This document shows positions 36,370-64,000 of a stretch of DNA of 64,000 nucleotides, piece by piece. This DNA is from Pyrobaculum oguniense TE7 (GTDB lineage Archaea > Thermoproteota > Thermoprotei > Thermoproteales > Thermoproteaceae). Each line of letters begins with the position of its first letter. Position 1 is the stretch's first letter. The stretch lies in assembly GCA_000247545.1 (NCBI GenBank), contig CP003316.1:467233-531232 (forward strand), given 5' to 3'. The notes under the pieces were generated by a model that was given only the letters and a program-made list of their open reading frames with translations, had not been told where the DNA came from and made no database searches. The translations under genes were made by a program, and so were the position numbers.

Positions 36370-36382
36370 AGGTTTATCCCTC
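36369..36382 (+). promoter_or_regulatory. Element promoter box before 36401 gene
   Basis: AAGGTTTATCCCTC lies 32 bases before ATG 36401 and fixes that start. Confidence 0.75.
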
Positions 36383-36400
36383 TTAAACCTCCCGGCGTTC

Positions 36401-41993: not shown

Positions 41994-42364
41994 ACGAGGT
42001 GTTGAAAGAAATATTGCTAAAACAGAAGCGCGAATTGGAGAGGCTTAAGAAAGAGGGCTGGCGCTTCCACATCCCGCCGCCTAAGCCGGCCAAGTGGAGG
42101 CCTGTGGAGATACCGTTGGTGAAGCTGGCCAAGGCGCTTGACATAACGTACAAGCGGCCGGAGTACTGGGATTTGTGTAGGGATCTAGAGAATCCTCTGA
42201 AGTGTTACCGCCTCTTGGTAAAGAGGCTTAGGGACAAAGAGCTGTTCAGCGCCTTTCTGCAAGCCCTCATGTCCGGCGGCGACGTGAAGACGGTGGTGGA
42301 GCTGGTGGAGAAGGGGGATAAGAAAGGGCTGGAGGAGTATACCTACTCCCGGTTTATGAAATGA
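41990..42364 (+). CDS. Hypothetical helical protein, 124 aa
   Basis: ATG 41990 overlaps the previous stop. It is basic and helical (LKEILLKQKRELERLKKEGWRF) with two cysteines (YWDLCRDLENPLKCY). It is translationally coupled on both sides to the ATPase genes, suggesting an adaptor of the transfer machine. Confidence 0.65.
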   Translation: MNEVLKEILLKQKRELERLKKEGWRFHIPPPKPAKWRPVEIPLVKLAKALDITYKRPEYWDLCRDLENPLKCYRLLVKRLRDKELFSAFLQALMSGGDVKTVVELVEKGDKKGLEEYTYSRFMK

Positions 42365-44999: not shown

Positions 45000-45763
45000 A
45001 GATAGTAATCGGCTCTGTTCTAGACAGCACGGCGGAGAGGTACTACACTGTCTGCCAGGCGGAGAGGCAGACGGGGGTGGGCTTTGAGCTGACGCCGGAG
45101 GGGCAGTTGGCTATCTCGGTAATCTTCTTTAGATACAACTACCCGATTACTCCCATACGCCATACTGCCGACCTACTCCAGTGCTCCAACCCGCTGTGCC
45201 TCTTGTTTAGATTCGCCGACTTCGATAACCTGCAGGAGGAGCCGGGGAAGTACCAGTTGCGAATCGCCGTAGCGGACCCAGTGGCCTTGGCCTTCGGCCT
45301 AGCCCTGGCCCACTACCTCGATTCAAAACACGGCGGGGGGTGGCTGGTGGAGGTGTACTCCGACGTCTGGCCCCAGTTCACCGACCTGCTTGCAATGGCC
45401 AAGCCGCTGGAGGGCACCCTCCGCGTATACACATCGGTGTATGACTCCCGCGTGGTCGTTGCTGACCGGGTTGTCTACACGCTTCAGTCAATTTCAGTGG
45501 AGGCCCTAGCCGCTAAGAAGGAGTGGAGAGGGGGCAAGATGTGCCGCGCGGCGACGCCGGAGTTCGCCGCCGTAGTCGACGAGGATTTGAGAGAGGTGGT
45601 GGAGGCGGTGTGGGAGGCCGGGGGCTACCTATCGCTTAAGTTCGCCCAAGAGAAGTTCGGCGAGAAGTTGCTGAGGGCAATCAACGCCGGCCTCCTCCGC
45701 CTGGATGCATTGACGCTTACTGTTAGGATAACAGAACTAGGGGCAAAGGCGCTTGGGATATGA
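44993..45763 (+). CDS. Hypothetical protein with C-terminal winged helix, 256 aa
   Basis: An alpha/beta N-terminal part carries cysteines (YYTVCQAERQ, LLQCSNPLCLLFRF). The C-terminal 60 residues look like a winged helix (REVVEAVWEAGGYLSLKFAQEKFGEKLLRA). Coupled by 4-base overlap to the second HerA-like ATPase. Confidence 0.62.
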   Translation: MLEIVIGSVLDSTAERYYTVCQAERQTGVGFELTPEGQLAISVIFFRYNYPITPIRHTADLLQCSNPLCLLFRFADFDNLQEEPGKYQLRIAVADPVALAFGLALAHYLDSKHGGGWLVEVYSDVWPQFTDLLAMAKPLEGTLRVYTSVYDSRVVVADRVVYTLQSISVEALAAKKEWRGGKMCRAATPEFAAVVDEDLREVVEAVWEAGGYLSLKFAQEKFGEKLLRAINAGLLRLDALTLTVRITELGAKALGI

Positions 45764-46686
45764 TGTACCAGAAGCTCTTCCACTTAGTAACGGTCGTTGA
45801 GGGAAATGCGTTGGTAACTGGCCTCCCCGGCACGGGGAAGACTTCCTTCATCAAGTGGTCGTTACGGGACATCCCGCCGGATTTCGCGGTGGTGGTCTAC
45901 GACACCGTCGGCGACTTCAAGGAGTGCGACTTTACCGGGAGGTTCTCCGTAAACCCCGTTGATCTACAGCCATCCCGCTTCCTCGAAATACTGGAGGAGG
46001 CCTTGTCGGCCACCTACGGCGAATACGCCTACCTGCTAACCCCAGCCATGGCCGAGCTGATCGTGAGGGCCATCGAGGCGGGGGCCTCCACCCCCTCCGC
46101 CGTGAGGTCTATGGTGTACAAAATCGCTGAGGCCCACGAGGTGGACACGGCGCACGCGGTTAGGCGCAGGTTGGCCCACCTAGACGGGCCTCAGTTTCTC
46201 AAGTCGGACGTCCCCGCCAAGCCGGGGAGGTCGACGTGCGTCGACATCTCGGCGTTGGACCGCGTCGGGAGGGTAGCCTTTGTCCTGACACACCTAGAGC
46301 TGACCCGCAGGAGCAGAAACGTCATATATGTCATAGACGAGGCGCACAGATTCCTCTCTTTTGCCAATAGGTATTCGCTCTTGGTAGACCACCTACGCAC
46401 CGGCAGGGCGGCTGGTAGGTTCTTCGTGCTGGTCTCGCACAGCTACCGCGAATTCGCGCGGCACCTAGGCTACGTCAAGATGTCCATCCGCTTCCTCGAC
46501 TGGGATTGGGAAAACGAGAGAAATCCACTACCCCCACTAGGCCCTTCGGAAGCGGTCGTTACGCTGTGGGCCGCCTCCACGAGGTCGGCCGCCATGCTGT
46601 CGAAGATGGGCATACCCCTAGCCGGCGTAGTTTCGAGGTTCAAATTGCAAGTCCCGCCCTATGCGGCGGCGGGACCCACTCAGTGA
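45760..46686 (+). CDS. Second HerA/VirD4-like P-loop ATPase
   Basis: The 308-residue protein has Walker A VTGLPGTGKTSFIKW near residue 24, a HerA-like strand VVVYDTVGDF, and Walker B VIYVIDEAHRFL near residue 190 followed by LRTGRAAGRFFVLVSHSY (sensor region). There are no membrane helices. It could act as a coupling or loading ATPase that brings DNA to the membrane motor. The VirD4 comparison is functional inference; the HerA/FtsK superfamily placement is well supported. Confidence 0.82.
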   Translation: MMYQKLFHLVTVVEGNALVTGLPGTGKTSFIKWSLRDIPPDFAVVVYDTVGDFKECDFTGRFSVNPVDLQPSRFLEILEEALSATYGEYAYLLTPAMAELIVRAIEAGASTPSAVRSMVYKIAEAHEVDTAHAVRRRLAHLDGPQFLKSDVPAKPGRSTCVDISALDRVGRVAFVLTHLELTRRSRNVIYVIDEAHRFLSFANRYSLLVDHLRTGRAAGRFFVLVSHSYREFARHLGYVKMSIRFLDWDWENERNPLPPLGPSEAVVTLWAASTRSAAMLSKMGIPLAGVVSRFKLQVPPYAAAGPTQ

Positions 46687-47242
46687 GGCTATCAACATGC
46701 TGAGGCAGGACTTCCCCGGCAAGTCCCGCTCGTGGATACGGAGGGCTATTCTAAGGCTTGGAGACGTCAGGGAGCTGAAGAGCGGCCTCTACCTGGTGGA
46801 GGGCAGGAGGGAGCTGGGGGACTGGAAGCCGCTTTACCAAGTGTGGTTTTCTGAGAGGGAGGGGAAGTGGTACTGCACCTGCTACTTCTCCCACTTCGGC
46901 TTCGCCAGGCAACGCGACATATGCACCCACGTCGCCGCAGTCATGCTCTACCGCCGGTACAAGAAGGCGCTGGAGAAGGCGGAGCGCAGGCGCGTATACG
47001 TCGCCGAGGGGGAGGTGGAGTGTAGAGGGCGGCTATCGGCAAACGGAGAGCTCTACGCGAAGCCCGCTGTGGAGAGGCTAGACCTCACCTTCTACGCCTC
47101 GCCCAAGTACAAAATCCTCGTGGTCTCAGACGTGAAGAGGATAGTGGTGAAGTGCAACGGCCTTGAGGTGCTGGAGCTGGAGGGAGAGGAGGTGCCCCTC
47201 GCCACAGCCAAGTTCTTGGTGGAGAGGTGGCATGGCCGTTAG
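46661..47242 (+). CDS. SWIM zinc-finger protein
   Basis: The 193-residue protein carries the SWIM pattern CxC-(x)n-CxH in WYCTCYFSHFGFARQRDICTHVAAVM (about residues 66-90). The N-terminal MLRQDFPGKSRSWIRRAI is basic. SWIM proteins often accompany recombinases or helicases and bind DNA or protein. The gene overlaps the end of the ATPase gene by 26 bases. Confidence 0.83.
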   Translation: MRRRDPLSEAINMLRQDFPGKSRSWIRRAILRLGDVRELKSGLYLVEGRRELGDWKPLYQVWFSEREGKWYCTCYFSHFGFARQRDICTHVAAVMLYRRYKKALEKAERRRVYVAEGEVECRGRLSANGELYAKPAVERLDLTFYASPKYKILVVSDVKRIVVKCNGLEVLELEGEEVPLATAKFLVERWHGR

Positions 47243-47648
47243 GAAGACCAAGAAGGGACGGTTTGTCCTGAGGCCGGCCTCCCTGGCCGATTTTCAACGC
47301 CTCTACGTAGACGTTTTCTCCATTGCCGCCTCCCTCGCGTACCCGGAGGAGTTGTTTAAATCGGCCGCCGAGGCGGGGGTAGACGCGGTGTTTGTCATAG
47401 ACGCCTGGCACGAATCGCATATGCCCTTAGCTAGGCGCTACCTAGAGCACTGCCGGAGGTATGGGCTGGACTGCCGCCTCTCCGAGCAGAAGCCCGCCGA
47501 GATATACGCCGTGGAGCTGTGCGAGGCGGAATGCGGCTCCGGCTGTGCCGTCGTCACCAGGGACTACGACGCCGCTCTGAAGGCGAGGAGGTGCGCCGTT
47601 TTGCTGTTTCAGGGAGGTAAGTTCTGGCTTGTGTCAAGTACAGAATAA
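47232..47648 (+). CDS. PIN-like domain protein, 138 aa
   Basis: ATG 47232 is used; it overlaps the SWIM gene by 11 bases. Acidic residues occur at PIN-like positions: YVDVFSIAA, FVIDAWHES and VVTRDYDAALKARR near the C-terminus, with repeated cysteines between. A PIN or NYN nuclease fold is possible but not proven. Confidence 0.6.
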   Translation: MAVRKTKKGRFVLRPASLADFQRLYVDVFSIAASLAYPEELFKSAAEAGVDAVFVIDAWHESHMPLARRYLEHCRRYGLDCRLSEQKPAEIYAVELCEAECGSGCAVVTRDYDAALKARRCAVLLFQGGKFWLVSSTE

Positions 47649-48421: not shown

Positions 48422-49363
48422 ATGCCCAAGCGCCCTCCTTCCGACGTGCCTGAGGAGTGCCGCTGGGCCTTTGACATATTCTCGGGGGAGAAGGCAGAGA
48501 GAGCTCTCCAGCTGTGCATGAGGGGCTACACGCTTAGGAAGATGGCTCTCATGACGCCGATGGAGATAGCCGACTTGCTCGGCTATGAAGACGTCACCGA
48601 CGCCGAGAAGGCGGCTAGGCGGCTGAGAGAAGCCGTCGGGATAAACGGTAAGCCCATGACAATCGCCGACCTCAAGAAGAGGCAGGACAGAGTGCTTAAA
48701 ACCGGCGTTGAGGAGTTCGACGAGAAGACCCCGTGGAAGGGCGTAAGGTTCGGCCTGGTATACGGGTTCGCGGGGGAATATGGGACTGGCAAGTCGTTGT
48801 TCGCCAAGCAGGTATCGGCGGTAGCTTTGTCGCAAGGCCTCAAGGTGGCCTACTTCGACACGGAGGGGACGTTCGACACGGACAATTCGACCATAGACGC
48901 CTTGTTCAAGAGATTCAACGTGTCGGAAGACGCCTACACCCGGCTTTTGATATACCGCCCCGTCGACTCCTTCCAGCTGATAGAGCAACTTAAGGAGCTC
49001 CCAGAGGACGTGGACGTGGTTATCGTCGATTCCCTAGTGGCGCCTTTCCGCGCCGAATACAGGGGGAGGCAGTTGCTGGCGCCGAGGCAACAGGCAATGC
49101 TCTACACCCTCAACATACTGCTAAGGCTGGCTAGGCTGGGGAAGCTTGCCATCGTGACTGACCAGGTAATGGACGTCCCCGCCTTCTTCGCCGTCAAGAG
49201 GCCGGCTGGGGGAAACGTCCTGCTCCACACTGTCCAAGCGCTTTTCATGATGGAGCGGCCGTCTAAGCAGAAGCTAGAGGGCGTCATGTGGCCTCTGGAC
49301 GTCCCCGGCATGGCTCCCTCTACAGAAATTCGATACAAGATAAGGGAGGATGGCCTCTACTAA
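48422..49363 (+). CDS. RadA/RecA-family recombinase
   Basis: The 313-residue protein has a small N-terminal helical domain (about 1-85), then a RecA core: the substrate-like FDEKTPWKG, Walker A FAGEYGTGKSLFAKQV near 118, VAYFDTEGTF, Walker B VDVVIVDSLVAPFRAEYRGRQLLAPRQQ (RadA-like signature), and the L2-type VPAFFAVKRPAGGNVL. It probably promotes strand exchange of transferred or replicating element DNA. The stop is 6 bases before the first arm of repeat array B. Confidence 0.9.
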   Translation: MPKRPPSDVPEECRWAFDIFSGEKAERALQLCMRGYTLRKMALMTPMEIADLLGYEDVTDAEKAARRLREAVGINGKPMTIADLKKRQDRVLKTGVEEFDEKTPWKGVRFGLVYGFAGEYGTGKSLFAKQVSAVALSQGLKVAYFDTEGTFDTDNSTIDALFKRFNVSEDAYTRLLIYRPVDSFQLIEQLKELPEDVDVVIVDSLVAPFRAEYRGRQLLAPRQQAMLYTLNILLRLARLGKLAIVTDQVMDVPAFFAVKRPAGGNVLLHTVQALFMMERPSKQKLEGVMWPLDVPGMAPSTEIRYKIREDGLY

Positions 49364-50587: not shown

Positions 50588-51058
50588 ATGCCCAACAAAC
50601 CCACAAACCAAAAGAAGAAGGCGTTGGCGGTGGCGGCGCTGGTGTTGCTGGTGCTGGCCGTGGAGGTGTACGCCCAGCAACAAGACGTCTATGAGAGAGT
50701 GAGAGAGGCGGTGGACGAAAACATCGTGAGTCCAGTAGTGAGTGGTGTAAGGGCTCTGGCGTATATCTGGGCCGTGGCCTTCTGGGTCGCCGTCATTCTC
50801 TTGGCACTCTACGCCTTCATCATGTTAAAGGCGGGGCCAACGACGTTTAGCCGCTGGTCTGGCTTTGTTGAGATGATAGACAGATACAAGCTGTTCCTGA
50901 TCGGCATCATAGCGGTGCCGCTGGCCATCGCGGCTCTGTTGACAGGAGTAGCCGCTGTCAGCAACCAAGAGGTGGATGCTTGGGGGATTGCAAATCAATT
51001 CGTGTCCTTTCTGTTCCAGCCCTTCAACGACGTGGCGAGGGCGCTTCTAGGGCAGTAA
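50588..51058 (+). CDS. VirB2/CedA1/TedC-like transfer pilin
   Basis: The 156-residue protein has a basic N-terminus and signal-like helix ending VYAQQQ (about 12-33), a short amphipathic helix, then two membrane helices (about 57-80 and 101-123) joined by a positively charged loop (KAGPTTFSRWSGFVEMIDRYK). A signal plus two helices is the VirB2/TrbC plan, and crenarchaeal Ced/Ted pilins have the same layout. Its TAA stop overlaps the next ATG. Assignment rests on plan and neighbours, not on a sequence signature. Confidence 0.72.
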   Translation: MPNKPTNQKKKALAVAALVLLVLAVEVYAQQQDVYERVREAVDENIVSPVVSGVRALAYIWAVAFWVAVILLALYAFIMLKAGPTTFSRWSGFVEMIDRYKLFLIGIIAVPLAIAALLTGVAAVSNQEVDAWGIANQFVSFLFQPFNDVARALLGQ

Positions 51059-51969
51059 TGACGGCGGTAACAACACCCTTTTTTTCCATACTCGCCTCTT
51101 CCTCCTCGGACTTCTGGCCCACCAGCCCCCTCCTCCTCGCCGTTTTGTCCCCAGTCCTCGCGATTTTCCTCTACGGCCTATACCTGTGGACCATCGGCAC
51201 TCCCCAACAGAGGGAGCACGCAGTGGACGTGTGGATTAGAGGCGTAGTCGCCGGCGCGCTGGCCGCGTCGGTGTTCTTCATTCCGCCGCTGATCGGCACG
51301 GCGATAATAGACATCTACACAGCCGCTGGCGGAGAGGCCGGCAACTGCCTGGCCCCGCTGAGAGTGGACTTCGACCCCAACTTGGCTAGATATGTCCACG
51401 GAGTCGAAAACGCAATGAAGTGCGCCATCGAAGTGTATGAGCAAACATACCGCCGCATCGCCGACACCTACACCAACCTCTTCCAGACGTCGACAGTGAG
51501 CGGAATATTCGCGGTCACCTCCTCGTTGTCCATGGGCATCTTCCAAATTGCCCTGCCCTTCTCGGGCGCCGCCTCCGGCGCCCTCATCGCCTTGACGGCG
51601 GCTAAAGTGGCGGCATACGTCGCAATCGCCTTCGCCGCCTTAGCGGGGTTGGGGGCCGTTTTAATCGCCACGGAGAGGATGCAGACGTTGGGTGCCGTGA
51701 TAGTGGCCGGGGCCATGGCCATGCCGCCTGTGCTGGCAGGTCTGGCAGACGCCATAGAGCCGCTGGCAGAGAAGATACCCCACGCCCAGGGCGTGTTGGG
51801 GGCGATTTCGAACTTGAACTTCTTCGACTGGGGCAAGTACGTATACGGCACCGGCGCAGTGGCGGAGATATCGGCGTACACAGCGCTAGCGCTGTCGGTG
51901 ATGGCCGCCGCAGTTGCGGCCATTAGCTATGCATTAAGCAGAGTGCCTCAGCACCTATCCGTAGAGTAA
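51058..51969 (+). CDS. VirB6/CedA-like polytopic membrane protein
   Basis: ATG 51058 overlaps the pilin stop; the longer frame lies inside the pilin gene. The 303-residue protein has membrane segments near 25-45, 60-90, 145-215 and 270-295, including an Ala-rich cluster (VAAYVAIAFAALAGLGAVLI). One external loop carries cysteines (GNCLAPL, MKCAIEV). This fits the channel subunit of Ced/Ted or conjugation systems. The TAATG stop/start overlap couples it to the giant gene. Confidence 0.75.
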   Translation: MTAVTTPFFSILASSSSDFWPTSPLLLAVLSPVLAIFLYGLYLWTIGTPQQREHAVDVWIRGVVAGALAASVFFIPPLIGTAIIDIYTAAGGEAGNCLAPLRVDFDPNLARYVHGVENAMKCAIEVYEQTYRRIADTYTNLFQTSTVSGIFAVTSSLSMGIFQIALPFSGAASGALIALTAAKVAAYVAIAFAALAGLGAVLIATERMQTLGAVIVAGAMAMPPVLAGLADAIEPLAEKIPHAQGVLGAISNLNFFDWGKYVYGTGAVAEISAYTALALSVMAAAVAAISYALSRVPQHLSVE

Positions 51970-54900
51970 TGGACATAGACATAACAATCTTCATTTTTTT
52001 CACCGGCGTCCTCTCCTCTCTCTACCTCCTATTTTTCCGGGGTCGTGAGGACTGGTACATCCCCCTCGCCGGCTCCATTTTAGTACTGCTTGTGCCCCAC
52101 GTGACCTGCCTAGTCTTCAGCTGGCATATCCCCTTTGCGGCCTGCCCCGTCTACACCTACGGCGTATACGACCTCGAGGAACAATTACGGAAGGCGGCTG
52201 AGGCCACTGAGGCCGTTGCCAACACAGCGCTGAGCCTAGCCGCGGAGTTCGCCAAGGCCATTGGCGCTTTATCGGCCGCCATGACTGCGGCGATGACAAT
52301 TTTGGCCATTGCAAGCGGCGGCCTTACGGCGCTTCTGGGCGGGGCGTTGGACTTGCTACGCATTATGAACTACGCAAACCCCGCGTGGCAGATCGCGGTG
52401 TCTGCCTACAACGTGGCCATGGGGATAGGGATGTCCTACCACGTGCTGGCCGTGTTGGCCAAGGCGGCTGAGCACTTCGTGCCTTTGTTGCTGGCGGCGG
52501 GGATGGCGTTGATGCCGCTTCCAAGAGTGAGGGGCTTCGGCGCAATGATATTCGCCTTGGGGCTGTTGCTGTACGTAGCCGCCATGGCTGGGCTACACTT
52601 CTCTGGGCCTACTATGGAAATTCTCAAGTGGCTGAACTCCACGAACAAGTGGATAGGCGATATGCCCAAGCCCTCCTTCAACTTCTCAGGCTACGGCTTC
52701 TTGGCAGTCCAAGGCGGAGGCATGTTCTTCGCCAGCTACGAGACACATGTAGACAACGCCACCGTGCAGAGGGCCTTGGAAGAATTAAGAAAATTAGGAA
52801 TTAACTACACCGGCTTGGCCATTACGCCGGGGAGGGACTACATCGCCGGCGCCGTGTTGACACCCATCTACGGCGGCTCTAACATAACGTGGCGTGGGCT
52901 GAACTCCTCTAGCCCGTACATCGTCTTCGCGTGGCTAGACGTGCCGATCAACGGCACAGACAGGATTCAGAGGAGACCGTGGGGCTTTGACTACTCCCTC
53001 ATCCAGTTGCCGGACAACGTCACAGTGAGTACTCCAAGCGGCAACATATCGCTAAGGGAATGGGGGCTTAGGGTGGCTGAGGCTGAGAGGGCGCTTATCG
53101 GCAACTTCACTCCCCTGTGGATAATAGATGCCGGTCCTCAGCAGTTTTGGCGCCTGCTTTTTGTAGAAGTGAACGCGACTATCTCCCTACGCAACCAGAC
53201 GCTGTACAACGGCACAGAGAGGGGCGTTGTGGGGGTGTGGGGCTGGATTGTGCCGCCGGATGAGGAGAGGTGCGAGGCGGCCGGCGCCGCGGTGGAGTGC
53301 GGCGCGGCCGACGTCACTGTTAAGCCCGGCTTATTGAAGTATGAAATTGAGGCCAACGCGACTACGTGGGTTAGGCCTATCGCCGAGCGGCTGACGTCGA
53401 GGTTCAACATGACGCTGGCCGAGGCGCCTAGACCTGTCAGAGACGGCGAGGAAAGGTTCTACACGTGGCAGGAGGTGTGCTACTACACGTGTTGTTCGAC
53501 ATGCTGTGACCAGAGCGGTTGCCGCACTTGCTGTAGCACCTGCTCCTACTACCGCACGGTGTGGGAGGAGCCCGTAATTTTCAAAATCCTCAGAGACGGG
53601 GAGTATGAAAGACAAGGCATCTTGTACGACCGGCCGTGGGTGCCGGAGGCGCCGTTCAACTTCACATTCCGCGTCGGGTACGTACACCGCGATTGGGAAG
53701 TGCGGAAGGAGCTTAGGGCGTCGGCGCCCGACACCGGCAGATGTCGCGAAATCCCCGGCACCCGCCGCCTTTACAAAAAGGTGGTCTTCTGGGATGTCCA
53801 GCCGTCCTTCTTCATGATATACGGCTTTGTTTGGGCCTCCTCAGTCGAGGCGGCGGTAGACGACATGCGCCGCCCACTGCCGGACTATTACGACGGCGGG
53901 CCTGCTGAGGAGGACGGCGCCGAGGTGATAAATCTGCTGAGAGGCGCGGAGCACGACCAGTATTGTAAAGTGGCTTACTACGGCGCCGCGCAGCCCAACT
54001 GGCAGTTGGTGCCTCTCGCCGTTAGGAACATGACGTCCATAAACAGGATGTACGACGCCTACCTCTTGACGCAAGGCAACTACACCGAGGTGTGGGGGAG
54101 GGGGGCCGTTGCGATTTCAAACGGCTCCCAGTTTGTCATTGAAGGGGTCAACAGATTGATTGAAGCCTATAAGCCGAAGCCGTTTATCCCAATGCCGGAG
54201 GCCGCGCCGACAAACTACACAATGACGCAGGTCACGGTGGAGTGTGTAAAATATGAGTGGCGTGGTAAGTCGTTGGCGACTGGCTCTCTAACCATTACTC
54301 CCGGCGCCCAGGTCTGGCTACACAACTACACATGGCTCGCTTCGCGTCTCTCGCTGGAATTCGTGAACAAGTCGGCGGAGATGTGGCTGTGGATTCTTCA
54401 AAACCCGCCTCCCAAGCCGCCTGAGAACTTAACGCGCTGGGGGATCGTGCCGGGCTGGCTCAACTCCACGTGGCTGTCGACGCCGCATGCGTTTTTCGGC
54501 GTCACCGCCACGGCGGCGGCTGGCATGTTGTTGTGGTACGCCGCGTCGCTACTGGCGGCGTGGATGTCCATATACCCCCAGATCCTCCTGGCATTCCTCT
54601 CGGTGTTCGCAATCTTTGAGGCCCTCAGCTGGCTGTTGGGCTTCCCGTCGCCCGGCATCCACTTGATGAGATTTGTCATGAATACGTTAGAGGATTTGGC
54701 ATTCTGGTACCAAGTCCGCCTACTTATCCGGGGCCGGGTATTCGCCAGGGCTCTACGCTTTTTGAAATCGCCTATGAGGGCCTTCGCTATACTGGCTGTT
54801 AGGAAGCTGTACTACAAGGGCTACCTCCGGCTTAGGGCTAAGGAGCGCTGGAAGATAGAGTCTATGCTGGGCCTCCGCTACGACGAGAGGGTGAGGGAGC

Positions 54901-57900
54901 AGATAGAGAAGAGGGTGGAGGAGAAGCTCACCGGCAAAAGGAGGCTGGAGAGGCTGGCTGAAAAGGCTAAGGAATACGCCGAGAGAGCCGCCGCGGCCGC
55001 CGCCACTGCGGCCGTAAAGACGGGCATGGCGACGTACGAGGCGGCTAAGGCCGCGTACAAGGCGGCTAAGACTGTCCACGAATACACGGAGGGCGACATT
55101 GTCCACTTGCTGAGGCGTCTGTCCCCCGCTGTCGACCACAAGCTGGAGGCCTTTCTGGAGTACATGGCTAAGCGCTACCCCGCCGTCTACCACCTATTCC
55201 TTGCACATCTAGACGAGAAGCCTAGGTGGATCTCAGCGCTGGATTTGCCGCGGCTTAGGATGCTGGCGGAGGCCGGGAAGATCAAGTGGGAGGTGTATCA
55301 GAAGGCCCGCAACCTAGTGGAGTACTACTACGCGCTTAGGGCGTACGAGAAGTTCAAGGCAATTACCGAAAAGCTGTCGGAGGAGAAGGTGTACGAGATG
55401 GCGATTAAGACGGCGCAAGAGGCCGCGGAGAGGTCGGAAAAGGCCCTACGCGCTTTGATGTACGACCTCGCGAGGGGCGTCGCGGAGGAGGAGATCCTTA
55501 GGCGCATAAAGGCGGTGGTCCAGCCGATAGAGGAGGTGTACCACCGCGGCGTATTTGCCAAGCTGACACAGATAGTGGGGATGGCGCTTCAAGAGAGGCC
55601 GCCTGAAACGCCTCAAGAGCTGGCCAAGTTGCTCATAGAAAGGCGCGACGAGGTGTTGCAGAGGGCGCCCATAATTGCCGAGGAGTGGAGGCAGTATTGG
55701 TCCGCGAGGGAAGTGCCGTATCCGGCGAGAGAGAGGATGGAGGCAATATTAGCGGAGTTCGCCCGCGTGGAAATAGCGAGTGAGCTGGCCGAGCTTAGGA
55801 CAGCGGCGCTGGCGAGGAGGGCGGCGTACCTGGCGCTGGAGTATGAACAGTTGAGAAAGGCGCTTGAGGCCAAGCTGGGGACGCCGGAGGAGCAGGCGCT
55901 TAGGGGAAGGATGCAGGAGCTTGAGAGACAGATGAGGGGCGTCGTGGAGGAGGCGAGGAGGATGATGGCCGATAGGCGGGTTTCGCTACAGGCGTGGGAG
56001 GCCGTGGAGAGGGGCGGGCAGTACGCCGTGGAGGTTAGAAATCTAGAATTTAGAATTAAAGATGTTAGGTGGCTGGAGAGGGTCTTCGACGTCGTTAAGA
56101 TTGAGAGGATAGAGCGCGGAGGCGCCGTCGAGGAGGCACTGTCAATAAACGAGAAGGCGGCGAGGAAGGTGCTGGAGGAGACGTGGCGCCTCTACCACGA
56201 CTTCGGCGAGAAGTACGTCTGGCTACGCCACGGCCCCGAGGAGCGCATCTACGCCGTGCCCAAGGCTGGAGTACAAGAAGTAGAACAAGCACTTGACAAG
56301 GCATTGCGCGTATACGGCCAGCACGGGAGGGAGGCGGCGGTTGCCGAATTCCGCCGCGCCGTTGAGGAGGCCAAGCAGTTCTACGCCTCGCGTGGCGGGG
56401 TAAGCGCTGTGGAGAACATAGAGGCGCTGGAGAGGAGGCTGGTTAAGCTTCTGGAGGAGCTCCCGGCTAAGCCCTCCGACGTCTTTGCCGCCTATGCGGA
56501 GGCGGCCCGGGAGGAGGTGGCGGGGGCGCTGCCGGGCCTGAGGGAGGCGGCGCTGGCTAGGCGGATAGCCCTCTTGGCTTTGGAGCACGGCGCTTTGCAG
56601 AGGGCGGTGGAGGAGAAGCTGGGCACTCCCGAGGAGCAGGCGCTGAGGGCTAGGCTGGAGGAGGTGGGGCGCCGGCTGAGGGGCGCGGTGGAGGAGGCCA
56701 AGGCGTACGGCCGAGGCGGCCTCTTGGAAAAGGCGCTTAGGGCGGCGGAGCCCGGCGTCGACGCGGAGAGGGCGAGGGAGGCGCTGGAGGCGGCTGAGGC
56801 GGCGTTGAGGGAGGCCGCGTCTAGGTACGGGTGGCTTCTGGAAGTGAGGGAGGCCGTGGAGCGCGCGCTTAGGGCGTATTCAGAGGGCGGGAGGGAGGCG
56901 GCTGTGGAGGAATTCCGCAGAGCCGTCGAGGAGGTTAAACAACGCCGCCCCGCCGACGCGGAGAGGATAGAGGCTGTGGAGAGGAGAATTGTCGAGGTAC
57001 TGCAAGATCTACCAGAGAGGCCTCTCTCCGCGGCGCCGAGGGAGGAGGTGGCGGAGAGGCTGGCGTTGGTGGAGAGGACACGCCAAGCGTTGTCCGACCC
57101 AGACGCCGCGTTTAGGGCCGTCCAGCTGGCTAGAGAGGCGGATGAAATCACTGTGATCAGCGCCCTGAGGCTAAGCGAGGAGGCGGAGGCGGTTAGGGCC
57201 TTCGTGCAGAGGGCCAAGTCCATTGACTACGCCGCGTTGGCGGGGGAGGCGAATAGGGCCGTAGACGACTTGTCTAGGCAGGTCTACGCGGCGTTGAAGG
57301 CAATTGACGACTACGACAAGTTCAAGGCCGAGGCGGCCCTCGCCCAAGACCGGTGGCTCAAGGCCCTCTACGAGGCGGATGCTGAAAGGGCGCTTCGCGC
57401 GGTAAAGGCAGAGCTTGAGCTGGCCAGACAACACCAGAAGCGGGCTGAGGAGGCCGTCTCCCGCGTGAAGGAGGTGGAGGAGGTCAAGCCGCCGTCTTTC
57501 GCCGGCTTGGACTTCTCGCAAGATGTCAAGATCACAAAAAGCGAGTACTTCCTACCCACAGACGCGGCGTTGTACGCCTTGGCGATTGCCTTTACAAGGC
57601 GGCTCGACGCGGTCAAGAGGGCAGCTACTCCCGAGGAGCGGCGCAAGGCAGTGGCCGAGTTAGCCGCTGTGACCGAGTTGCTGAGGGAATACCCGAGGGA
57701 GAGGGTGGCTATGGCGTTGAAGGAGGCGGAGAGGCCGATATTCTACAAGGCCGGCAAGGTCGAGGTCAACACGGAGAAGGCGGAGAAGTTGCTGGCGGCG
57801 CTGGGATACGCCGCAATTGCCGCCTTAGGCCGGCCTGAGTCCTACGCCGCCTCGGTGATGCTGGAGGAGCTGGCCAAGGAGCTGGGAGTGCCGAAAGACG

Positions 57901-60900
57901 CCTTGCTGAAGGCCGCCTCCATCAGCCCCGCGCTGGCAGAGGCGGTCAAGGCGGTTAGAGAACTGGCGTCTGTCGACAAGAAGTTCGCCAAGTTGGTGGA
58001 GGAGGCCAAGACGGAGAGGGATTTGGAGAAGATTAGGGCGTACCTCAGGGCGGAGGCCAAGGCCCTTAGGGCGGCCTCCGAGCTGGGCGAGTTTTTGAAA
58101 TCGCCTTCTGTAGAGGCCAACCTCGGTTATCTCATATTCGCCGCGGATAGGTTGCAGTTGAGGGATGTCAAGAGGGTGCTGGAGCTGATTGGGAGGGCCA
58201 AGGGCGAGTTGTCGTTTTTCGAAGAGCGCTACTTCAACGTAGTATACGAGCAACTATTGCCGTTGCTGGGCTGGCGTGCCGAGAGGATGCTCCTACGCGC
58301 TCCGCCGGCCGTGTACGTCCTCAACCGCATGGGCGCCGACCTGGCCAAGGATGTGTTCTCGCGGTACCGCGGCTTCGAGGCCTACGGCTCGGAGCTGAGG
58401 GACGTGGTGCCGCGTGTAGACCTGCCCTTGAGCGTCGGGATGCCGGTATCCCTCAAGCCCAAGTTCACGCAGTATCCGCAACGCGTCACGCGCTACGTGG
58501 CCGACTGGAGCGACTCCGCCCTCGCCTCGGGGATTAGGCGCTACTACCAGACTGAGGAGGGGAGGAGGCATAGGGCGTTGGCCGAGGGGCTGGCCGTGGC
58601 GGCCGGGGCGGCCGCGCTTAGGAAGGCGGCGGAGCGGCTTCTGGAAGAGGCGCAGAGGCGCGACAGCGACGCCCTCGCGCTTATCGCATACCTCACCGCG
58701 GCTAGGGCGGCGAGGGAGGAGCTGAGGCTGGCTGGTATCTTCATGAGGGCCGGCGCAAGGGTCCACGCCGACGCCGTGAGGAGGAGGGCTGGGGAGCTCT
58801 ACGCAACGGCGCTGGAGAAGGCGGTGGAGATCCTCCGCAGGCACTACGACGAGAAGAGTGGCATCAGCCAGCTCCTTGTAGACGGCTTAGGGCTCTATTT
58901 GGGCAGGCTGGCCAACGTGTTGAAGAGGGCCAAGACCGAGGAGGATATCAGAGAAGCCGCCGAAAAACTAGCGGGCCGCATGCACCTCATGCGCGTTGCG
59001 GCTGTGGCGGAGGCGGCTGGGCTGGAGGAGCTGAGGGCGCCGCTGGCCCACGCCATGGAGGCTGTTAGGACATATCTGAAGCTGGAGCACTGGCTGTCCA
59101 CAAAGAGGCCCGCGGCGGCGCCCGGAGAGCTTAGGGCCGAGGCAATTCAGGCTCTAGACGCCCCGCTCCCCAAGGTCGAGAGGAGAGTGATGGAGGAGGC
59201 AGTCGCTCGCTCCGTCCGCCTGTGGCTGGCGGAGGAGGCCGGACGGCTGGCGAGGCTGGCCCAGTGGCTGGAAGAGCCATATTTGCGCGCGAAGGACAAG
59301 AGGCATAGGGAGGACATAAGGCGCATCCGCGAAGTTGTCGAGGAGGCGTGGAAAAACGCCGTTAGGAAACTCGCAGAGGAGGCCAAGGCGGCGGCGGAGT
59401 TCTCGCCTTCGGCGCTTCAAGAGCTAAAGCTGGTGGCGGAGAGCTGGGCCGGCGCTGGGCACCACCGCTACCCCGCCCACAGGCTGGAGGAGGCGGCCCC
59501 GCCGGGGGAGGGGGCGGAGAGGCTGTACAAGTACATAGGGATGCGGATATTACAGGAGATTAGAGATGTACAACCCGCCTCAAGGCCCGAGGCTGAGCTC
59601 TACGAGAGGCTTCCGCAACGCCTTAGGGAGCTGGCGGAGGGCGAGGTGAAGAACGTGGAGATGGCGCTTATTAGGGAGGGCTACTACGACGAGTTGCTGA
59701 GGCCGGCGTATAAGTGGCTGTATTTACCGTTCGAGCGGGAGGACCCGAGGCCTCTCTTTGAGCGGGTTGCCGAGAGGGCGGCGGAGCTGGCCAAAAGACA
59801 CGGCGTAGACCCAACGCCTTTGGTGCAAGCCGCAGAGGAGCTGAAGAGGTCGACGATTAGGGAACTGCCCAAGGCCGCGGAGAGGGCCGGCGGCGCCTTG
59901 GCTGAGGTTGTCTCGAAAGTGGTGGAGGTTGTTGCTAGGAGGAGGGCGGAGGAGCTGAGGGAGAGGGGCGTGGACGTCTCTCACGACGCCGGCTTTCTGC
60001 TGTCGGTGGCTAAGAGGATAATAAGAAAGATTTCGCGCGGGCTGGACGAGGAGGCGCTGGCCGTGGACGCCGTCTACAAGTGGGTGTCGAGGACGGCGGA
60101 GGAGGTGAATAGGAACATGGACGTGTTGGAGAAGGCATATTTCGAATTCGCCGTGCTTAAGACTAAGAACAGAGAGGTGGCTGAGGCCTACGCGAGGCGG
60201 TTCAGCATACGCCCAGCCGCGGCGGATGAATACGACCCCGTCGAGGGGGTCTTCAAGCGCCGCGAGGTCTACTTGATTATACACCAAAGTCTGCAGGCCG
60301 CGGTGTCCAAGGCCCTGGACTGGCTGGCAGGGGAGCTGAGGGACAAAGAGGAGGTGCCTGTTTCGCACATGTTTGTGGGGCCGCCGGAGCTTGGCTTCAT
60401 CTTGGCGGAGAGGATGAGGCTGGCGTTTGCCAGGGAGGGCCGATACTACAAGTACTTCCAGTTCTACGACCTTGAGTCAGAGGTCAAGGCTATTGCGGAG
60501 CGTTTGGTGGAGATGGCGGCGGAGGAGGCGGCTGGGAGGCCGGTGTTTTGGGTGTTGCGCTACGAGCACCTACGCCGCTTTGCGCCTCTAATCGCCAAGA
60601 TATACGGCGCTGAGTACGACCCGTTGCGGGACGCCGGATACGTGCACAAGGCGGACTTCGCCATCGGCTACGCCGTCATGAAGGAGCTTCTGAAGTTGCT
60701 GAGGGAGAGGGTGAGGAGGGGCGAGGCTAAGCCGTGGGAGTGGTCTACTCACAAAGACTTGGCTGAGGGGATGGCCAAGGCGCTGGAGGAGGCGGTGGGG
60801 AGGGAGTTCGCCAAGCCCGGCGCCGCCCAGACTGCCCTAGAGGGGGTGAAGTACGCCATGAGGTACCTAGCCGGAGAGGCGCCGCACCCGTCGGGGGTGG

Positions 60901-63900
60901 CCAGAGAGGCGTACGACGCGGCCGTGAGGCTGTTCTCGCTGATAGCCGGAGTGAAGGAGGAGGAGCTTTGGCGCAAGACGCTGAAGCTCAAGGAGACCAA
61001 CCCAGGACAATTCGACAGCCTAGTAGAGCTGGCCGAGGAGAGGCTTGGGCTGAGGAGGAGAGAGGAGGAGAGGGAGAAGAGGCCCGAAAAGCCGGAGAGG
61101 AAGCCCGAGGAGGTAGTCAAGAAGCAAGAGGAGGAGAAGCCCGGAGAGAGGAGGCCGGAGGCCAAGAGGCCGCAAGAGGAGGAGAAGCCGGCGGCTGAGA
61201 AGGCTGGGGAGAAGCCGGCCGCCGCGCAGAGGCCGTCTGTTAAGCCCGCCAAGTCTGAGGAGAGGCTAGAGGCCGCCGGGCAGAGGGCGGCCGCGGAGGC
61301 GCCGCGCGGCTTGATCCCGGAGGGCCACGAAGGGGTTAAGGCCGTGCTGTGGCTTGTGAGGGCGAGCGGGGCGGAGCTGGAGGACGCGTCCCAGCTGGTG
61401 AGGGCCGCGGCCTCTAAGCTCAAGGAGAAGTACAAGGCCAAGGTGGGGAGGATGGAGCCCGCCCTGGCGGAGCTGGCGGAGAAGGCGCTGGAGGAGGCCT
61501 ACTACCTAGTGGAGGTCGCGGCCCGGTCAAGGTCGGCGCTGGAGAAGCTACGCGTAGCATTTGAGGTTGGCGAAAACGCCGTCTTCGGCCTAAGGCCGGA
61601 GACGCCGGAGGAGGCAGACGCGGCTAAGATACTGGCCGACTTGGCCAAGCTGGTGAGGCAGGCGGAGGAGGAGCTCGGCGCTGGGCTGAGGGTGTGGGGA
61701 TTGGCACAGCAGTTCGCCCTGGCGCTGATAGACCGGGTGGAGGCGGAGTACGACAGAGTGCTGAAGGCCGTAACGACGATTGAGAGGGCCCTTATCCCGG
61801 CGGCTGTGTCCGCAATGGGCGTCGTGGGGGCAATTGCGACACACGACGTTGTCCTCGGCGCCGCGGCCCCAATCGCCGCCGCCATCGCGCTGGCCAAGGC
61901 AGACCAGCTTAAAGAGGCCGCCAAGAAGGCTAAGGAGGCGGCGGAGAGGATATACGAGGCGGCGAGGGAGCTGTGGGAAGCCGCCAAGGTAACGCTACAG
62001 CGGATATACGAGGTCGTGGTCGAGGCAATCGCGAGGGCGCTGGACTACGTAAAGGCGCATTGGTTCATATTCGCGGCCGCGGCGGCCGGCCTCATTGCTT
62101 GGGCCACGGCGCAACAGCTGGACTTCCAGCTGTGGATGGAGCACGTTGCTAAACTCGCTCCCGTCATTGTCGGCGCGCCGAAGTTCAAGGAGTTTAAGCC
62201 GGCGCTGGAGGGGGAGGCGCCCGACTTGCTTAAGGCGGCGGAGAGGGCCCTGGCGTGGAGGGACTTCAAATCTATAAAGGCCTTCTTGGACGAGGGCATG
62301 AAGGCGGTCTTAAAGATGCAGGACTTGAAAAAGGTGGTGGAGAACGTGAACAAGTACGGCGCAGGGAAGGGGCTAAGGCCGGAGCACGCCGTCGATGTTT
62401 TGGCCTTGGTGGAGGCGGGCTTGAAGAGGCTGGGAAAGCCGCCGTCTCTCGCGGAGGCGGCTGAAAGGCTGGCTAAAGGCGAGAGGGTAGAGCTGGACGT
62501 CAACGAGGTCGTGGAGTACATAAAGAGGATCCGCGACGTGGCGTATCAGCTGAGGCTCTTGTTTAGGCACATAGCGGAGAACGCCGAGAGGTACGCGAGA
62601 AATAAGCGAGAGGCCGAGGCGATGAAAAGAGCGTTTACCGTGACCGAGGCGGCTGAGGAATTGGCCGAGGCGGCGAGCAAGGAGTTTCGCAAGCTCGGCG
62701 ATGCCACCCTCGCTGATAAGGCTGTGGCCTTTTTCGAGAGCTTGGCGCTCGGCACTGCTTGGAGCCGCGTAGTGCTAAACGCCATGGAGAAGGGGAAGGC
62801 GTACGAAGCCCTCGTGTGGGCGCCGACAACAGCGGCTGGTAAATACGGCGTGGGGAGGGAGGCGGTGGACATGTGGGAGGGCTTGCTGACGCGCGCCGCA
62901 GTGTGGCTCGCCGGGAGGGGAGTGGACAAGGCCGAGTTTAGGCGCAAGGGCAGCCAAGTGGAGATAATCGTCAACGGCGAAGCCGTCGCCGTCGTGGAGA
63001 TAGAGGAAAGCGAGGTTATGGGGATTGTCTACCGCGCCAAGGGGAAGTGGGTCAAGGAGGAGGCCATGCGGCAGTTGAAGCTCGCGAGGGAGCTGGCCGA
63101 GGCCATAAAGACAAAGCCGGAGGAGTACGCCCTCCTCGCCCTCCTGGCCACAGACGGGAGCTACGTAGCAGAAAATCATGTAGTCCTAGCCGGCACGACC
63201 TCTGTGGCCCAGGCGGCTTTGTACATAAAGCTCGGCTTTAAGGTCAAATACGCCGGCTACGGGAATTTGACCGAGGAGGGCTTAAAGCCAGTGTTCGAGG
63301 CATGGCGCATAGACGAGAAGATAGTGAAGAGAGTTAAGGAGCATCTGGCCGCGGCGGAAGCGCTGTTCAAGGACCCAGGAAGGGCCGAGTTGCTCTACAA
63401 GGCCCTAGACCTCCTCCAAGAGATTCGCTGGAACAGCGCCAAGGCGAAGAGGAAGGCGGCCGAGAGGATAACGACACTTCTCTTCCACCTGAGACTAGGC
63501 GGCGGGAAGGTCTGCTTGGCGAATTGCCAATTCGGCGAGCCAACGCTGACGGTTAAACGCGAGGCGTACGCCCGCGTCGTTGCGCCGCTCCTCTACTACA
63601 TAGCGAGGGAGGTGCCCGGGTGGGAGGGGGAGAAGGCGAGGGAGGAGGTCATGAAGTTCTTGGCCCACGCCGTCCTCTACGATGGGGGCGTGGAGCCGGA
63701 CCAAGTATACCTCACAGTGGGCAACTTCGGCGCGAAAAGCGAGGAGAAACAGCTCCCCATGGATATATACGACAAAATCGCTCTGTACGTAATCCTCGCC
63801 GCTAAATACGGCGTAGGGGTCAAAGGGATATCCGTAAGAGAAGGCAAGGCGCAGATACGCCTTAAGCCGGAATACGCCGCGTGGGTCTTCGCGGCTGAGT

Positions 63901-64000
63901 GGCCTTTCTTCTCACAACTGCTTGGAGTGTGCAAGGCGCTGGGCATCGGCGCCGACCACATCAATAAAAAACTTGAAAAGATGAAAAGGTTAGTGGAGGT
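51969..64000 (+). CDS. Giant membrane-anchored protein, at least 4,010 aa (3' end outside window)
   Basis: One frame stays open from ATG 51969 to the window edge; codon phase was checked at nine positions. Residues 1-205 hold membrane helices (about 5-22, 30-50, 88-125, 170-202). Residues 210-835 are external, with many sequons and a Cys knot of nine cysteines at 504-525. Membrane helices return at 840-897. Residues 900-3030 are charged, helical and probably cytoplasmic, with an internal duplication (EEKLGTPEEQALR, then GREAAVEEFRRAVEE). A Lys/Glu/Pro linker spans 3033-3098, hydrophobic segments lie near 3275-3310 and 3362-3384, and a folded domain (3660-4010) includes LLALLATDGSY (TDG at 3728-3730). 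That domain may be related to the Pyrobaculum PaREP2b family or a LAGLIDADG-like fold; this is uncertain. Likely part of the transfer machine. Confidence 0.93.
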   Translation, partial: MDIDITIFIFFTGVLSSLYLLFFRGREDWYIPLAGSILVLLVPHVTCLVFSWHIPFAACPVYTYGVYDLEEQLRKAAEATEAVANTALSLAAEFAKAIGALSAAMTAAMTILAIASGGLTALLGGALDLLRIMNYANPAWQIAVSAYNVAMGIGMSYHVLAVLAKAAEHFVPLLLAAGMALMPLPRVRGFGAMIFALGLLLYVAAMAGLHFSGPTMEILKWLNSTNKWIGDMPKPSFNFSGYGFLAVQGGGMFFASYETHVDNATVQRALEELRKLGINYTGLAITPGRDYIAGAVLTPIYGGSNITWRGLNSSSPYIVFAWLDVPINGTDRIQRRPWGFDYSLIQLPDNVTVSTPSGNISLREWGLRVAEAERALIGNFTPLWIIDAGPQQFWRLLFVEVNATISLRNQTLYNGTERGVVGVWGWIVPPDEERCEAAGAAVECGAADVTVKPGLLKYEIEANATTWVRPIAERLTSRFNMTLAEAPRPVRDGEERFYTWQEVCYYTCCSTCCDQSGCRTCCSTCSYYRTVWEEPVIFKILRDGEYERQGILYDRPWVPEAPFNFTFRVGYVHRDWEVRKELRASAPDTGRCREIPGTRRLYKKVVFWDVQPSFFMIYGFVWASSVEAAVDDMRRPLPDYYDGGPAEEDGAEVINLLRGAEHDQYCKVAYYGAAQPNWQLVPLAVRNMTSINRMYDAYLLTQGNYTEVWGRGAVAISNGSQFVIEGVNRLIEAYKPKPFIPMPEAAPTNYTMTQVTVECVKYEWRGKSLATGSLTITPGAQVWLHNYTWLASRLSLEFVNKSAEMWLWILQNPPPKPPENLTRWGIVPGWLNSTWLSTPHAFFGVTATAAAGMLLWYAASLLAAWMSIYPQILLAFLSVFAIFEALSWLLGFPSPGIHLMRFVMNTLEDLAFWYQVRLLIRGRVFARALRFLKSPMRAFAILAVRKLYYKGYLRLRAKERWKIESMLGLRYDERVREQIEKRVEEKLTGKRRLERLAEKAKEYAERAAAAAATAAVKTGMATYEAAKAAYKAAKTVHEYTEGDIVHLLRRLSPAVDHKLEAFLEYMAKRYPAVYHLFLAHLDEKPRWISALDLPRLRMLAEAGKIKWEVYQKARNLVEYYYALRAYEKFKAITEKLSEEKVYEMAIKTAQEAAERSEKALRALMYDLARGVAEEEILRRIKAVVQPIEEVYHRGVFAKLTQIVGMALQERPPETPQELAKLLIERRDEVLQRAPIIAEEWRQYWSAREVPYPARERMEAILAEFARVEIASELAELRTAALARRAAYLALEYEQLRKALEAKLGTPEEQALRGRMQELERQMRGVVEEARRMMADRRVSLQAWEAVERGGQYAVEVRNLEFRIKDVRWLERVFDVVKIERIERGGAVEEALSINEKAARKVLEETWRLYHDFGEKYVWLRHGPEERIYAVPKAGVQEVEQALDKALRVYGQHGREAAVAEFRRAVEEAKQFYASRGGVSAVENIEALERRLVKLLEELPAKPSDVFAAYAEAAREEVAGALPGLREAALARRIALLALEHGALQRAVEEKLGTPEEQALRARLEEVGRRLRGAVEEAKAYGRGGLLEKALRAAEPGVDAERAREALEAAEAALREAASRYGWLLEVREAVERALRAYSEGGREAAVEEFRRAVEEVKQRRPADAERIEAVERRIVEVLQDLPERPLSAAPREEVAERLALVERTRQALSDPDAAFRAVQLAREADEITVISALRLSEEAEAVRAFVQRAKSIDYAALAGEANRAVDDLSRQVYAALKAIDDYDKFKAEAALAQDRWLKALYEADAERALRAVKAELELARQHQKRAEEAVSRVKEVEEVKPPSFAGLDFSQDVKITKSEYFLPTDAALYALAIAFTRRLDAVKRAATPEERRKAVAELAAVTELLREYPRERVAMALKEAERPIFYKAGKVEVNTEKAEKLLAALGYAAIAALGRPESYAASVMLEELAKELGVPKDALLKAASISPALAEAVKAVRELASVDKKFAKLVEEAKTERDLEKIRAYLRAEAKALRAASELGEFLKSPSVEANLGYLIFAADRLQLRDVKRVLELIGRAKGELSFFEERYFNVVYEQLLPLLGWRAERMLLRAPPAVYVLNRMGADLAKDVFSRYRGFEAYGSELRDVVPRVDLPLSVGMPVSLKPKFTQYPQRVTRYVADWSDSALASGIRRYYQTEEGRRHRALAEGLAVAAGAAALRKAAERLLEEAQRRDSDALALIAYLTAARAAREELRLAGIFMRAGARVHADAVRRRAGELYATALEKAVEILRRHYDEKSGISQLLVDGLGLYLGRLANVLKRAKTEEDIREAAEKLAGRMHLMRVAAVAEAAGLEELRAPLAHAMEAVRTYLKLEHWLSTKRPAAAPGELRAEAIQALDAPLPKVERRVMEEAVARSVRLWLAEEAGRLARLAQWLEEPYLRAKDKRHREDIRRIREVVEEAWKNAVRKLAEEAKAAAEFSPSALQELKLVAESWAGAGHHRYPAHRLEEAAPPGEGAERLYKYIGMRILQEIRDVQPASRPEAELYERLPQRLRELAEGEVKNVEMALIREGYYDELLRPAYKWLYLPFEREDPRPLFERVAERAAELAKRHGVDPTPLVQAAEELKRSTIRELPKAAERAGGALAEVVSKVVEVVARRRAEELRERGVDVSHDAGFLLSVAKRIIRKISRGLDEEALAVDAVYKWVSRTAEEVNRNMDVLEKAYFEFAVLKTKNREVAEAYARRFSIRPAAADEYDPVEGVFKRREVYLIIHQSLQAAVSKALDWLAGELRDKEEVPVSHMFVGPPELGFILAERMRLAFAREGRYYKYFQFYDLESEVKAIAERLVEMAAEEAAGRPVFWVLRYEHLRRFAPLIAKIYGAEYDPLRDAGYVHKADFAIGYAVMKELLKLLRERVRRGEAKPWEWSTHKDLAEGMAKALEEAVGREFAKPGAAQTALEGVKYAMRYLAGEAPHPSGVAREAYDAAVRLFSLIAGVKEEELWRKTLKLKETNPGQFDSLVELAEERLGLRRREEEREKRPEKPERKPEEVVKKQEEEKPGERRPEAKRPQEEEKPAAEKAGEKPAAAQRPSVKPAKSEERLEAAGQRAAAEAPRGLIPEGHEGVKAVLWLVRASGAELEDASQLVRAAASKLKEKYKAKVGRMEPALAELAEKALEEAYYLVEVAARSRSALEKLRVAFEVGENAVFGLRPETPEEADAAKILADLAKLVRQAEEELGAGLRVWGLAQQFALALIDRVEAEYDRVLKAVTTIERALIPAAVSAMGVVGAIATHDVVLGAAAPIAAAIALAKADQLKEAAKKAKEAAERIYEAARELWEAAKVTLQRIYEVVVEAIARALDYVKAHWFIFAAAAAGLIAWATAQQLDFQLWMEHVAKLAPVIVGAPKFKEFKPALEGEAPDLLKAAERALAWRDFKSIKAFLDEGMKAVLKMQDLKKVVENVNKYGAGKGLRPEHAVDVLALVEAGLKRLGKPPSLAEAAERLAKGERVELDVNEVVEYIKRIRDVAYQLRLLFRHIAENAERYARNKREAEAMKRAFTVTEAAEELAEAASKEFRKLGDATLADKAVAFFESLALGTAWSRVVLNAMEKGKAYEALVWAPTTAAGKYGVGREAVDMWEGLLTRAAVWLAGRGVDKAEFRRKGSQVEIIVNGEAVAVVEIEESEVMGIVYRAKGKWVKEEAMRQLKLARELAEAIKTKPEEYALLALLATDGSYVAENHVVLAGTTSVAQAALYIKLGFKVKYAGYGNLTEEGLKPVFEAWRIDEKIVKRVKEHLAAAEALFKDPGRAELLYKALDLLQEIRWNSAKAKRKAAERITTLLFHLRLGGGKVCLANCQFGEPTLTVKREAYARVVAPLLYYIAREVPGWEGEKAREEVMKFLAHAVLYDGGVEPDQVYLTVGNFGAKSEEKQLPMDIYDKIALYVILAAKYGVGVKGISVREGKAQIRLKPEYAAWVFAAEWPFFSQLLGVCKALGIGADHINKKLEKMKRLVE

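Follow-up and report, generated by a model that had tools for sequence, protein, structure and literature searches.

The crenarchaeal DNA-exchange machines Ced and Ted are the closest described systems to the locus examined here. In the Ced system of Saccharolobus, a second CedA/VirB6 paralogue, CedE, is required for import and contributes to export, and the absence of a relaxase has been noted for both machines (PMC11868833). For Ted, the signal cleavage site of the pilin TedC of Pyrobaculum calidifontis (Pcal_0765) is AVA/QA, and the structure of this pilin has been solved (PMC9905601). We analyzed a window of 64,000 nucleotides, chromosome positions 467,233-531,232 of Pyrobaculum oguniense TE7, in which a Ted locus ends in a gene for a giant protein of 4,372 amino acids (aa). 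Extended VirB6 proteins occur in bacterial type IV systems as Rickettsiales RvhB6 and F-plasmid TraG; like these, the giant joins a VirB6-like polytopic part to large soluble domains, but it is ∼3-5 times longer, has a nuclease-like C terminus, and is likened to them by plan, not by sequence. We propose that the giant is a second VirB6-like subunit of Ted, greatly enlarged, that tethers an exchangeable DNA-binding or DNA-cleaving module beneath the channel, a reading to which we give an even chance. Like CedE, it would be an additional VirB6-like protein accompanying CedA/TedA in crenarchaeal DNA exchange, and the two may be comparable in role; CedE, however, consists of five transmembrane (TM) helices only (PMC11868833), whereas the giant also has an ectodomain, ∼2,100 helical residues, and a PaRep2b module.

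The giant gene and its Ted locus

The open reading frame starts with the ATG at window position 51969 and continues on the + strand without a stop through the window edge at 64000, as a first-pass annotation of the window had reported (at least 4,010 codons). When we extended it into the chromosome, a check proposed there, the same frame went on to a stop at 532,319 (window equivalent 65,087; 1,087 bp beyond the edge), so that the complete gene spans chromosome 519,201-532,319. Given the base composition, a stop-free run of this length has a chance of ∼1e-67, and the remaining five frames contain 81-243 stops apiece, with no open run longer than 257 codons. G+C content by codon position stays in phase along the entire gene, in line with the earlier reading of the frame. 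Among close copies, the ratio of nonsynonymous to synonymous substitution (dN/dS, Nei-Gojobori) was well below 1 along the full length: 0.09-0.15 up to residue 1500, 0.11-0.30 over the rest of the helical part, and mainly 0.2-0.44 across the last 900 residues. The giant is thus confirmed as an intact gene under purifying selection throughout.

The N-terminal 1,000 residues of the giant served as the query for a search of 61 relatives. Homologous uninterrupted frames were found in genomes G004 (three, 4,633-4,725 codons), G012 (two, 4,508 and 4,890 codons), G010 (5,058 codons), and G018 (4,269 codons), and the homologues in these four span 4,239-5,058 aa. Those of G002 are interrupted by contig ends, and one G004 copy (279 kb) is split. 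The giant could be aligned end to end with homologues from G004, G002, G012, and G010; in the G018 homologue, part of the helical region is absent or unalignable. G018, Thermoproteus sp. CP80, was also the sole match in a scan of genome contigs. The assembly was made from 454/SOLiD data, and paREP repeats have been described as difficult to assemble (PMC3558965), but an assembly or annotation artefact is excluded by open frames of similar length in independent genomes together with dN/dS well below 1 throughout, which leave it virtually no chance. The frameshift or assembly error that the first-pass annotation had considered is likewise contradicted by uninterrupted homologues of 4.2-5.1 kaa (thousand aa), very large for archaeal proteins.

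The giant is the last gene of the locus, which is ordered as follows (window coordinates).

42361..44313, +: VirB4/HerA-type ATPase with N-terminal hydrophobic segments, TedB candidate (Pfam DUF87, 3.7e-10)
44310..47648, +: conserved Ted-locus genes (next four lines; same order and 30-75% identity in the G004, G002, G012, and G010 loci)
44310-44999 and 44993-45763, +: two unnamed genes
45760-46686, +: AAA ATPase
46661-47242, +: SWIM zinc-finger protein
to 47648, +: small gene
48422..49363, +: Rad51/RadA-like recombinase (Pfam Rad51, 1.1e-18; conserved in other loci)
50588..51058, +: TedC, VirB2-like pilin (TrbC/VirB2, 0.0015, below cut-off; orthologues directly upstream of TedA in G010, G012, and G004)
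51058..51969, +: TedA, VirB6/CedA-like membrane protein (gene order as in published Ted loci, PMC9905601)
51969..64000, continuing to the 65,087 equivalent, +: giant Ted-associated protein (frame, chromosome extension, homologues)

The combination that we took to define a Ted locus, TedC pilin, TedA, and VirB4-like ATPase together, is present. The ATPase at 42361 also matches NCBIfam VirB4 (4.5e-8) and CedB (2.6e-5), all its matches lying under curated cut-offs, and it is conserved upstream of other giants. A TAATG overlap at 51058 couples TedC to TedA, and a second, which the first-pass annotation had seen, couples TedA to the giant; stop/start overlaps join the three genes in G000, G004, G002, G012, and G010. 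Several species, belonging to two genera, share the series VirB4/HerA ATPase, conserved genes, TedC, TedA, giant. The search of Thermoproteales proposed earlier therefore places the giant beside transfer genes in relatives, usually directly behind TedC-TedA, and upholds the claim that it belongs with them.

We take G010 to be P. calidifontis. Its pilin starts ...LAVA/QA at residues 20-24, exactly the cleavage site of P. calidifontis TedC Pcal_0765 (PMC9905601), and the giant is therefore the next gene after Pcal_0766 (TedA). The published Ted system further shares the order VirB4-like ATPase ... TedC-TedA, with ParA/MinD, HerA-type, and recombinase genes nearby. It differs in that the text of that paper has no giant component, whereas the locus here ends in a 4.2-5.1 kaa gene. 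The first-pass annotation knew of no such giant for Ced or Ted; the text of the Ted paper bears this out, although the gene immediately follows the P. calidifontis pair characterized there and may be among the genes left without a label in its Fig. 1g. Our literature searches found no paper on this giant gene.

Of 10 single-chromosome Thermoproteaceae, four (G000, G004, G010, and G012) have both the giant and a Ted marker gene (window 44993-45763) and six have neither (Fisher p 0.005). The locus is present in 3-5 copies in some genomes (five marker loci in G002, three in G004), and the region at 485-530 kb, present in P. oguniense, is missing from P. arsenaticum (PMC3558965, Table 5). This suggests that Ted in Pyrobaculum lies in a variable, multicopy island, unlike a fixed domesticated locus. 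Elsewhere in the window, a MinD/ParA-like ATPase gene followed by a T2SSE (type II/IV secretion-type) ATPase gene and several genes without Pfam matches (27467-29709) probably represents more machinery of the same island. A 1,003-aa open reading frame upstream of the Ted genes (36296-39307) has no Pfam match, and a GmrSD-type (DUF262) restriction protein is encoded near the island edge (23099-24169, -).

Layout of the giant protein

The protein and its tail comprise the following parts.

51969..52598, +: VirB6/TedA-like polytopic N-terminal domain, residues 1-210 (hydrophobic segments, hhalign to TedA)
52599..54548, +: predicted ectodomain, residues 211-860, with 24 sequons, a Cys cluster, and long predicted beta strands (sequon count, alignment, model)
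54549..54758, +: TM hairpin, then strongly basic stretch, residues 861-930 and on (hydrophobicity, alignment)
54759..61070, +: charged, predicted cytoplasmic helical region, residues 931-3034 (composition, alignment)
61071..61253, +: K/E/P/A-rich flexible linker, residues ∼3035-3095 (alignment; also in other giants)
61254..64000, +: PaRep2b module, residues ∼3096-4372, the last 362 outside the window (PF07775)
62826..63683, +: hypervariable segment inside the module, residues 3620-3905 (module alignments)
63153, +: codon of the motif-1 Asp, D3729 (module alignments)
63681, +: codon of the invariant motif-2 Asp, D3905 (module alignments)

The first-pass annotation had described a polytopic membrane domain, a glycosylation-rich external domain, and >2,000 residues of charged helix, and each of these was recovered. 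The N terminus is polytopic, with 5-7 TM segments by hydrophobicity (the helices of its AlphaFold2 model are of low confidence). Residues 1-210 aligned with TedA in hhalign at 78% (P 1.7e-5, 178 columns), and reversed alignments and two ABC-permease families, used as controls, all stayed at <1%. This is moderate evidence from profile comparison that the N terminus is homologous to VirB6/TedA. The N terminus, ectodomain, and helical parts gave nothing significant in Pfam or NCBIfam, and we rejected N-terminal Foldseek matches to pore-forming toxins and trypanosome receptors (probability <0.6) as long-hairpin/helical-bundle coincidences. Residues 211-860 contain 24 N-X-S/T sequons vs 3.5 expected from shuffling, an enrichment likewise found in the G004, G010, and G012 homologues and, within the giant, confined to these residues. 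This domain also has a Cys-rich cluster, invariant Trp/Tyr/Pro/Gly positions, and modeled strands up to 35 residues long.

Because the TM hairpin and basic stretch follow at residues 861-930, the remainder of the giant is expected to lie in the cytoplasm. Near residue 3363 there is a conserved hydrophobic helix, which may be buried or belong to a second hairpin; the lack of sequon enrichment beyond it favors a cytoplasmic location for the tail as well. The charged region amounts to ∼2,100 residues of predicted helix, with D/E/K/R at 31-40% per 250 residues, and its halves, compared with Protein Data Bank (PDB) sequence profiles, gave one weak match only, to a designed protein. The first-pass annotation had proposed a structural giant, either a DNA-guiding tether or a channel-spanning ruler. 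A cytoplasmic tether fits the topology and the C-terminal evidence given below. The ruler is not supported because ∼3,400 of 4,372 residues are predicted to be cytoplasmic, and the role of the gene is probably more than structural: the C terminus is a PaRep2b/LAGLIDADG-like module with dispersed exchange partners.

Among the genomes searched, the 4-5 kaa form with a PaRep2b tail is confined to Thermoproteaceae. In the Vulcanisaeta-type family (assigned by kinship and published Ted genera), the Ted locus encodes a protein of 1,431-1,788 aa built on the same plan of TM domain, sequon-rich ectodomain, TM segment, and basic helical tail, which the giant's N terminus matched at 91-96% in profile comparison (hhalign). 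In other families of the class, the VirB6-like stretch was matched weakly by frames no longer than 1,352 aa, and a scan of IMG/VR with the N-terminal profile gave no match. Three genomes of one related genus (G019, L107/L108; G022, L111:2877-3755; G028, L113/L114) encode a 292-296 aa membrane protein adjoining the Ted marker gene, which is closer by BLAST to giant residues 174-226 than to TedA and is possibly a minimal form of the giant; profile comparison of these three small TedA-like proteins gave no convincing match.

The C-terminal PaRep2b module

The C-terminal end, which lay outside the window of the first-pass annotation, is the most informative part of the protein. The tail matched Pfam PaRep2b (PF07775) with 360 bits (cut-off 20.4) over a module of ∼1,280 residues and is by this profile a PaRep2b member. 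In the papers that we found, this family has no link to a transfer machine or to LAGLIDADG, whereas here it forms the tail of a Ted-locus protein. All complete intact giants examined, from two genera, carry the module in frame behind the conserved linker. PaRep2b-matching stretches number at least 28 in P. oguniense and at least 28 in P. aerophilum; many copies are standalone (313-592 aa or 1,000-1,380 aa) and match the giant tail only. One 414-aa tail gene (L087:13107-14351) lies within a G004 Ted locus, between the RadA-like gene upstream and TedC downstream. A 2,785-aa P. aerophilum protein (L068:5324-13681, 483-499 kb) matches giant residues 2108-3001 and 3114-4311; with an unrelated W/P/R-rich N terminus, no match to the membrane part, and a genome without the Ted marker gene, it resembles a soluble half-giant. 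Phage records searched with the module gave no match.

Several lines of evidence, each weak, converge on a LAGLIDADG fold or ancestry of the module, which on sequence and model grounds we consider probable. Besides PaRep2b, the one family that many modules matched was LAGLIDADG_3, with hits in 9 of 40 and, among cropped modules, in 10 of 28 (best 1.3e-4). A scan of eight genomes gave about a dozen sub-threshold matches within PaRep2b frames, and one standalone frame exceeded the curated LAGLIDADG cut-off (24.1 vs 22.5 bits). The Asp-Gly of the motif helix is invariant in 28 of 28 modules. The best Foldseek matches of the AlphaFold2 model (predicted local distance difference test, pLDDT, 80.5) were mostly LAGLIDADG meganucleases (such as I-OnuI, I-PanMI, and I-GzeII; E 0.12-0.23, probability 0.6), and hhalign matched the modules to true LAGLIDADG proteins of these genomes at 54% (P 1.3e-4; reversed, <1%). 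With homing endonucleases of this class the module shares the invariant (G)DG motif, the alpha-beta-beta-alpha-beta-beta-alpha order, the best fold matches, and the LAGLIDADG_3 signal; the similarity is weak, however, and the module stands outside introns and inteins, fused to a membrane giant or dispersed.

A tree of 40 modules places giant tails with standalone copies of their own lineage. We compared the giant with dispersed copies at four-fold sites of identical amino acids and found patches of 0.74-0.88 silent-site identity vs 0.36-0.44 elsewhere (random 0.33; p 2e-5 to 3e-6), which shows that gene conversion or recombination moves segments between them. Residues 3620-3905 remain divergent between giant and copies. 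A conserved body with a variable C terminus, dispersed orphan tails, and recombination among them would also be expected of a polymorphic-toxin-like protein whose exchangeable end is delivered to other cells, the copies serving as spare cassettes. We rejected this very improbable explanation: no conserved immunity-type gene follows the tails, only unrelated chromosomal genes or tRNAs; the tails are one family per lineage, not unrelated toxin folds; and several TM segments precede them. It is also quite unlikely that the giant is purely structural, a scaffold or tether spacing the ATPases from the pore with a protein-protein docking tail of nuclease-fold origin. Such a role would suit the ∼2,100 residues of charged helix and the flexible linker, in which no enzyme signature was found, but not the invariant LAGLIDADG-type Asp-Gly or a hypervariable segment where a docking surface should be conserved.

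The distribution of the copies bears on the main rival, in which the module is a selfish LAGLIDADG-derived mobile unit sitting on the 3′ end of a functional Ted protein and at intergenic sites, some before tRNA genes, with any transfer role confined to the N-terminal and helical parts. PaREP2b has been called a putative transposon (PMC3558965). The unit is present in many copies in several genomes; its 5′ ends vary, its homology stops at the 3′ end amid unrelated flanking DNA, and some species that lack the Ted marker gene (P. aerophilum and G008) have module-only copies. A tRNA gene lies ≤75 bp from the end of 7 of 45 modules, 4 of which end 23-26 bp ahead of it on the same strand (p about 1e-10; tRNA calls by ARAGORN, which may miss further tRNAs), and Rfam at gathering threshold found no additional tRNAs beside modules. 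This adjacency points to insertion targeted at tRNA genes or to retention beside them. dN/dS is also raised in the module, but at 0.2-0.44 it is still low, standalone copies retain long intact frames (dN/dS about 0.25-0.5), and the module is present, in frame after the linker, in every complete intact giant of both genera. We regard the selfish unit as rather unlikely. PaRep2b 3′ ends in G004/G002 (L062, L063, L066, and L089) and in P. oguniense (L035) lie 23-45 bp upstream of same-strand tRNA genes, and the post-stop sequence of tRNA-adjacent modules, TTAAAAACACA...TGTAAA, could be the tRNA promoter.

Proposed function

As a tethering Ted subunit, the giant would be the third membrane-linked component of the machine and its second VirB6/TedA-like protein. 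The large glycosylated outer domain would contact the partner cell or the pilus base, and the long helical arm and flexible linker would position the PaRep2b module, of LAGLIDADG descent, where the pore opens into the cytoplasm. From its sequence and model, the module may act on DNA, in recognition or cleavage; most likely it would recognize, and possibly nick or cut, DNA handled by the VirB4/HerA ATPases and RadA-like protein of the locus, its recognition part being diversified by gene conversion with dispersed copies.

Several observations weigh against this proposal. The AlphaFold2 model of the N terminus is weak (pLDDT 62.6) and matched nothing. The giant's own tail falls below the LAGLIDADG Pfam cut-off, its best Foldseek E value is only 0.12, and PDB profile searches with the whole module and the cropped LAGLIDADG region returned no nuclease. 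The P. oguniense module subgroup alone gives no hhalign signal to LAGLIDADG proteins, and a clear motif 1 is restricted to the P. oguniense/aerophilum and G004/G002 lineages. Finally, two giants lack neighboring Ted genes (G004 at 1.2 Mb and the second G012 copy). The G004 solo giant (C1:1203000-1217236, L042/L043) is flanked by orthologues of two window genes, 13411-13710 and 13907-15820; in P. oguniense this site is empty (∼200 bp, flanking genes adjacent), and the giant gene alone may therefore move or be left behind; by eye, its ends compared with the empty site showed no clear target-site duplication.

A bolder version of the tethering proposal, which we consider unlikely, is that the giant supplies the DNA-processing enzyme missing from Ted. 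Since Ced and Ted have no known relaxase (PMC11868833), a pore-anchored LAGLIDADG-type nickase or endonuclease could replace it, the exchangeable tail setting the chromosomal sites of cutting or gripping and being switched by gene conversion with dispersed PaRep2b copies.

The shorter forms in sister families offer a route for tracing the expansion of the giant, and the PaRep2b repeat family gains in the Ted-locus giant a likely origin or partner. For the preparation of DNA by Ced and Ted, the giant provides a concrete, assayable candidate linking a VirB6-like channel to a nuclease-like module.

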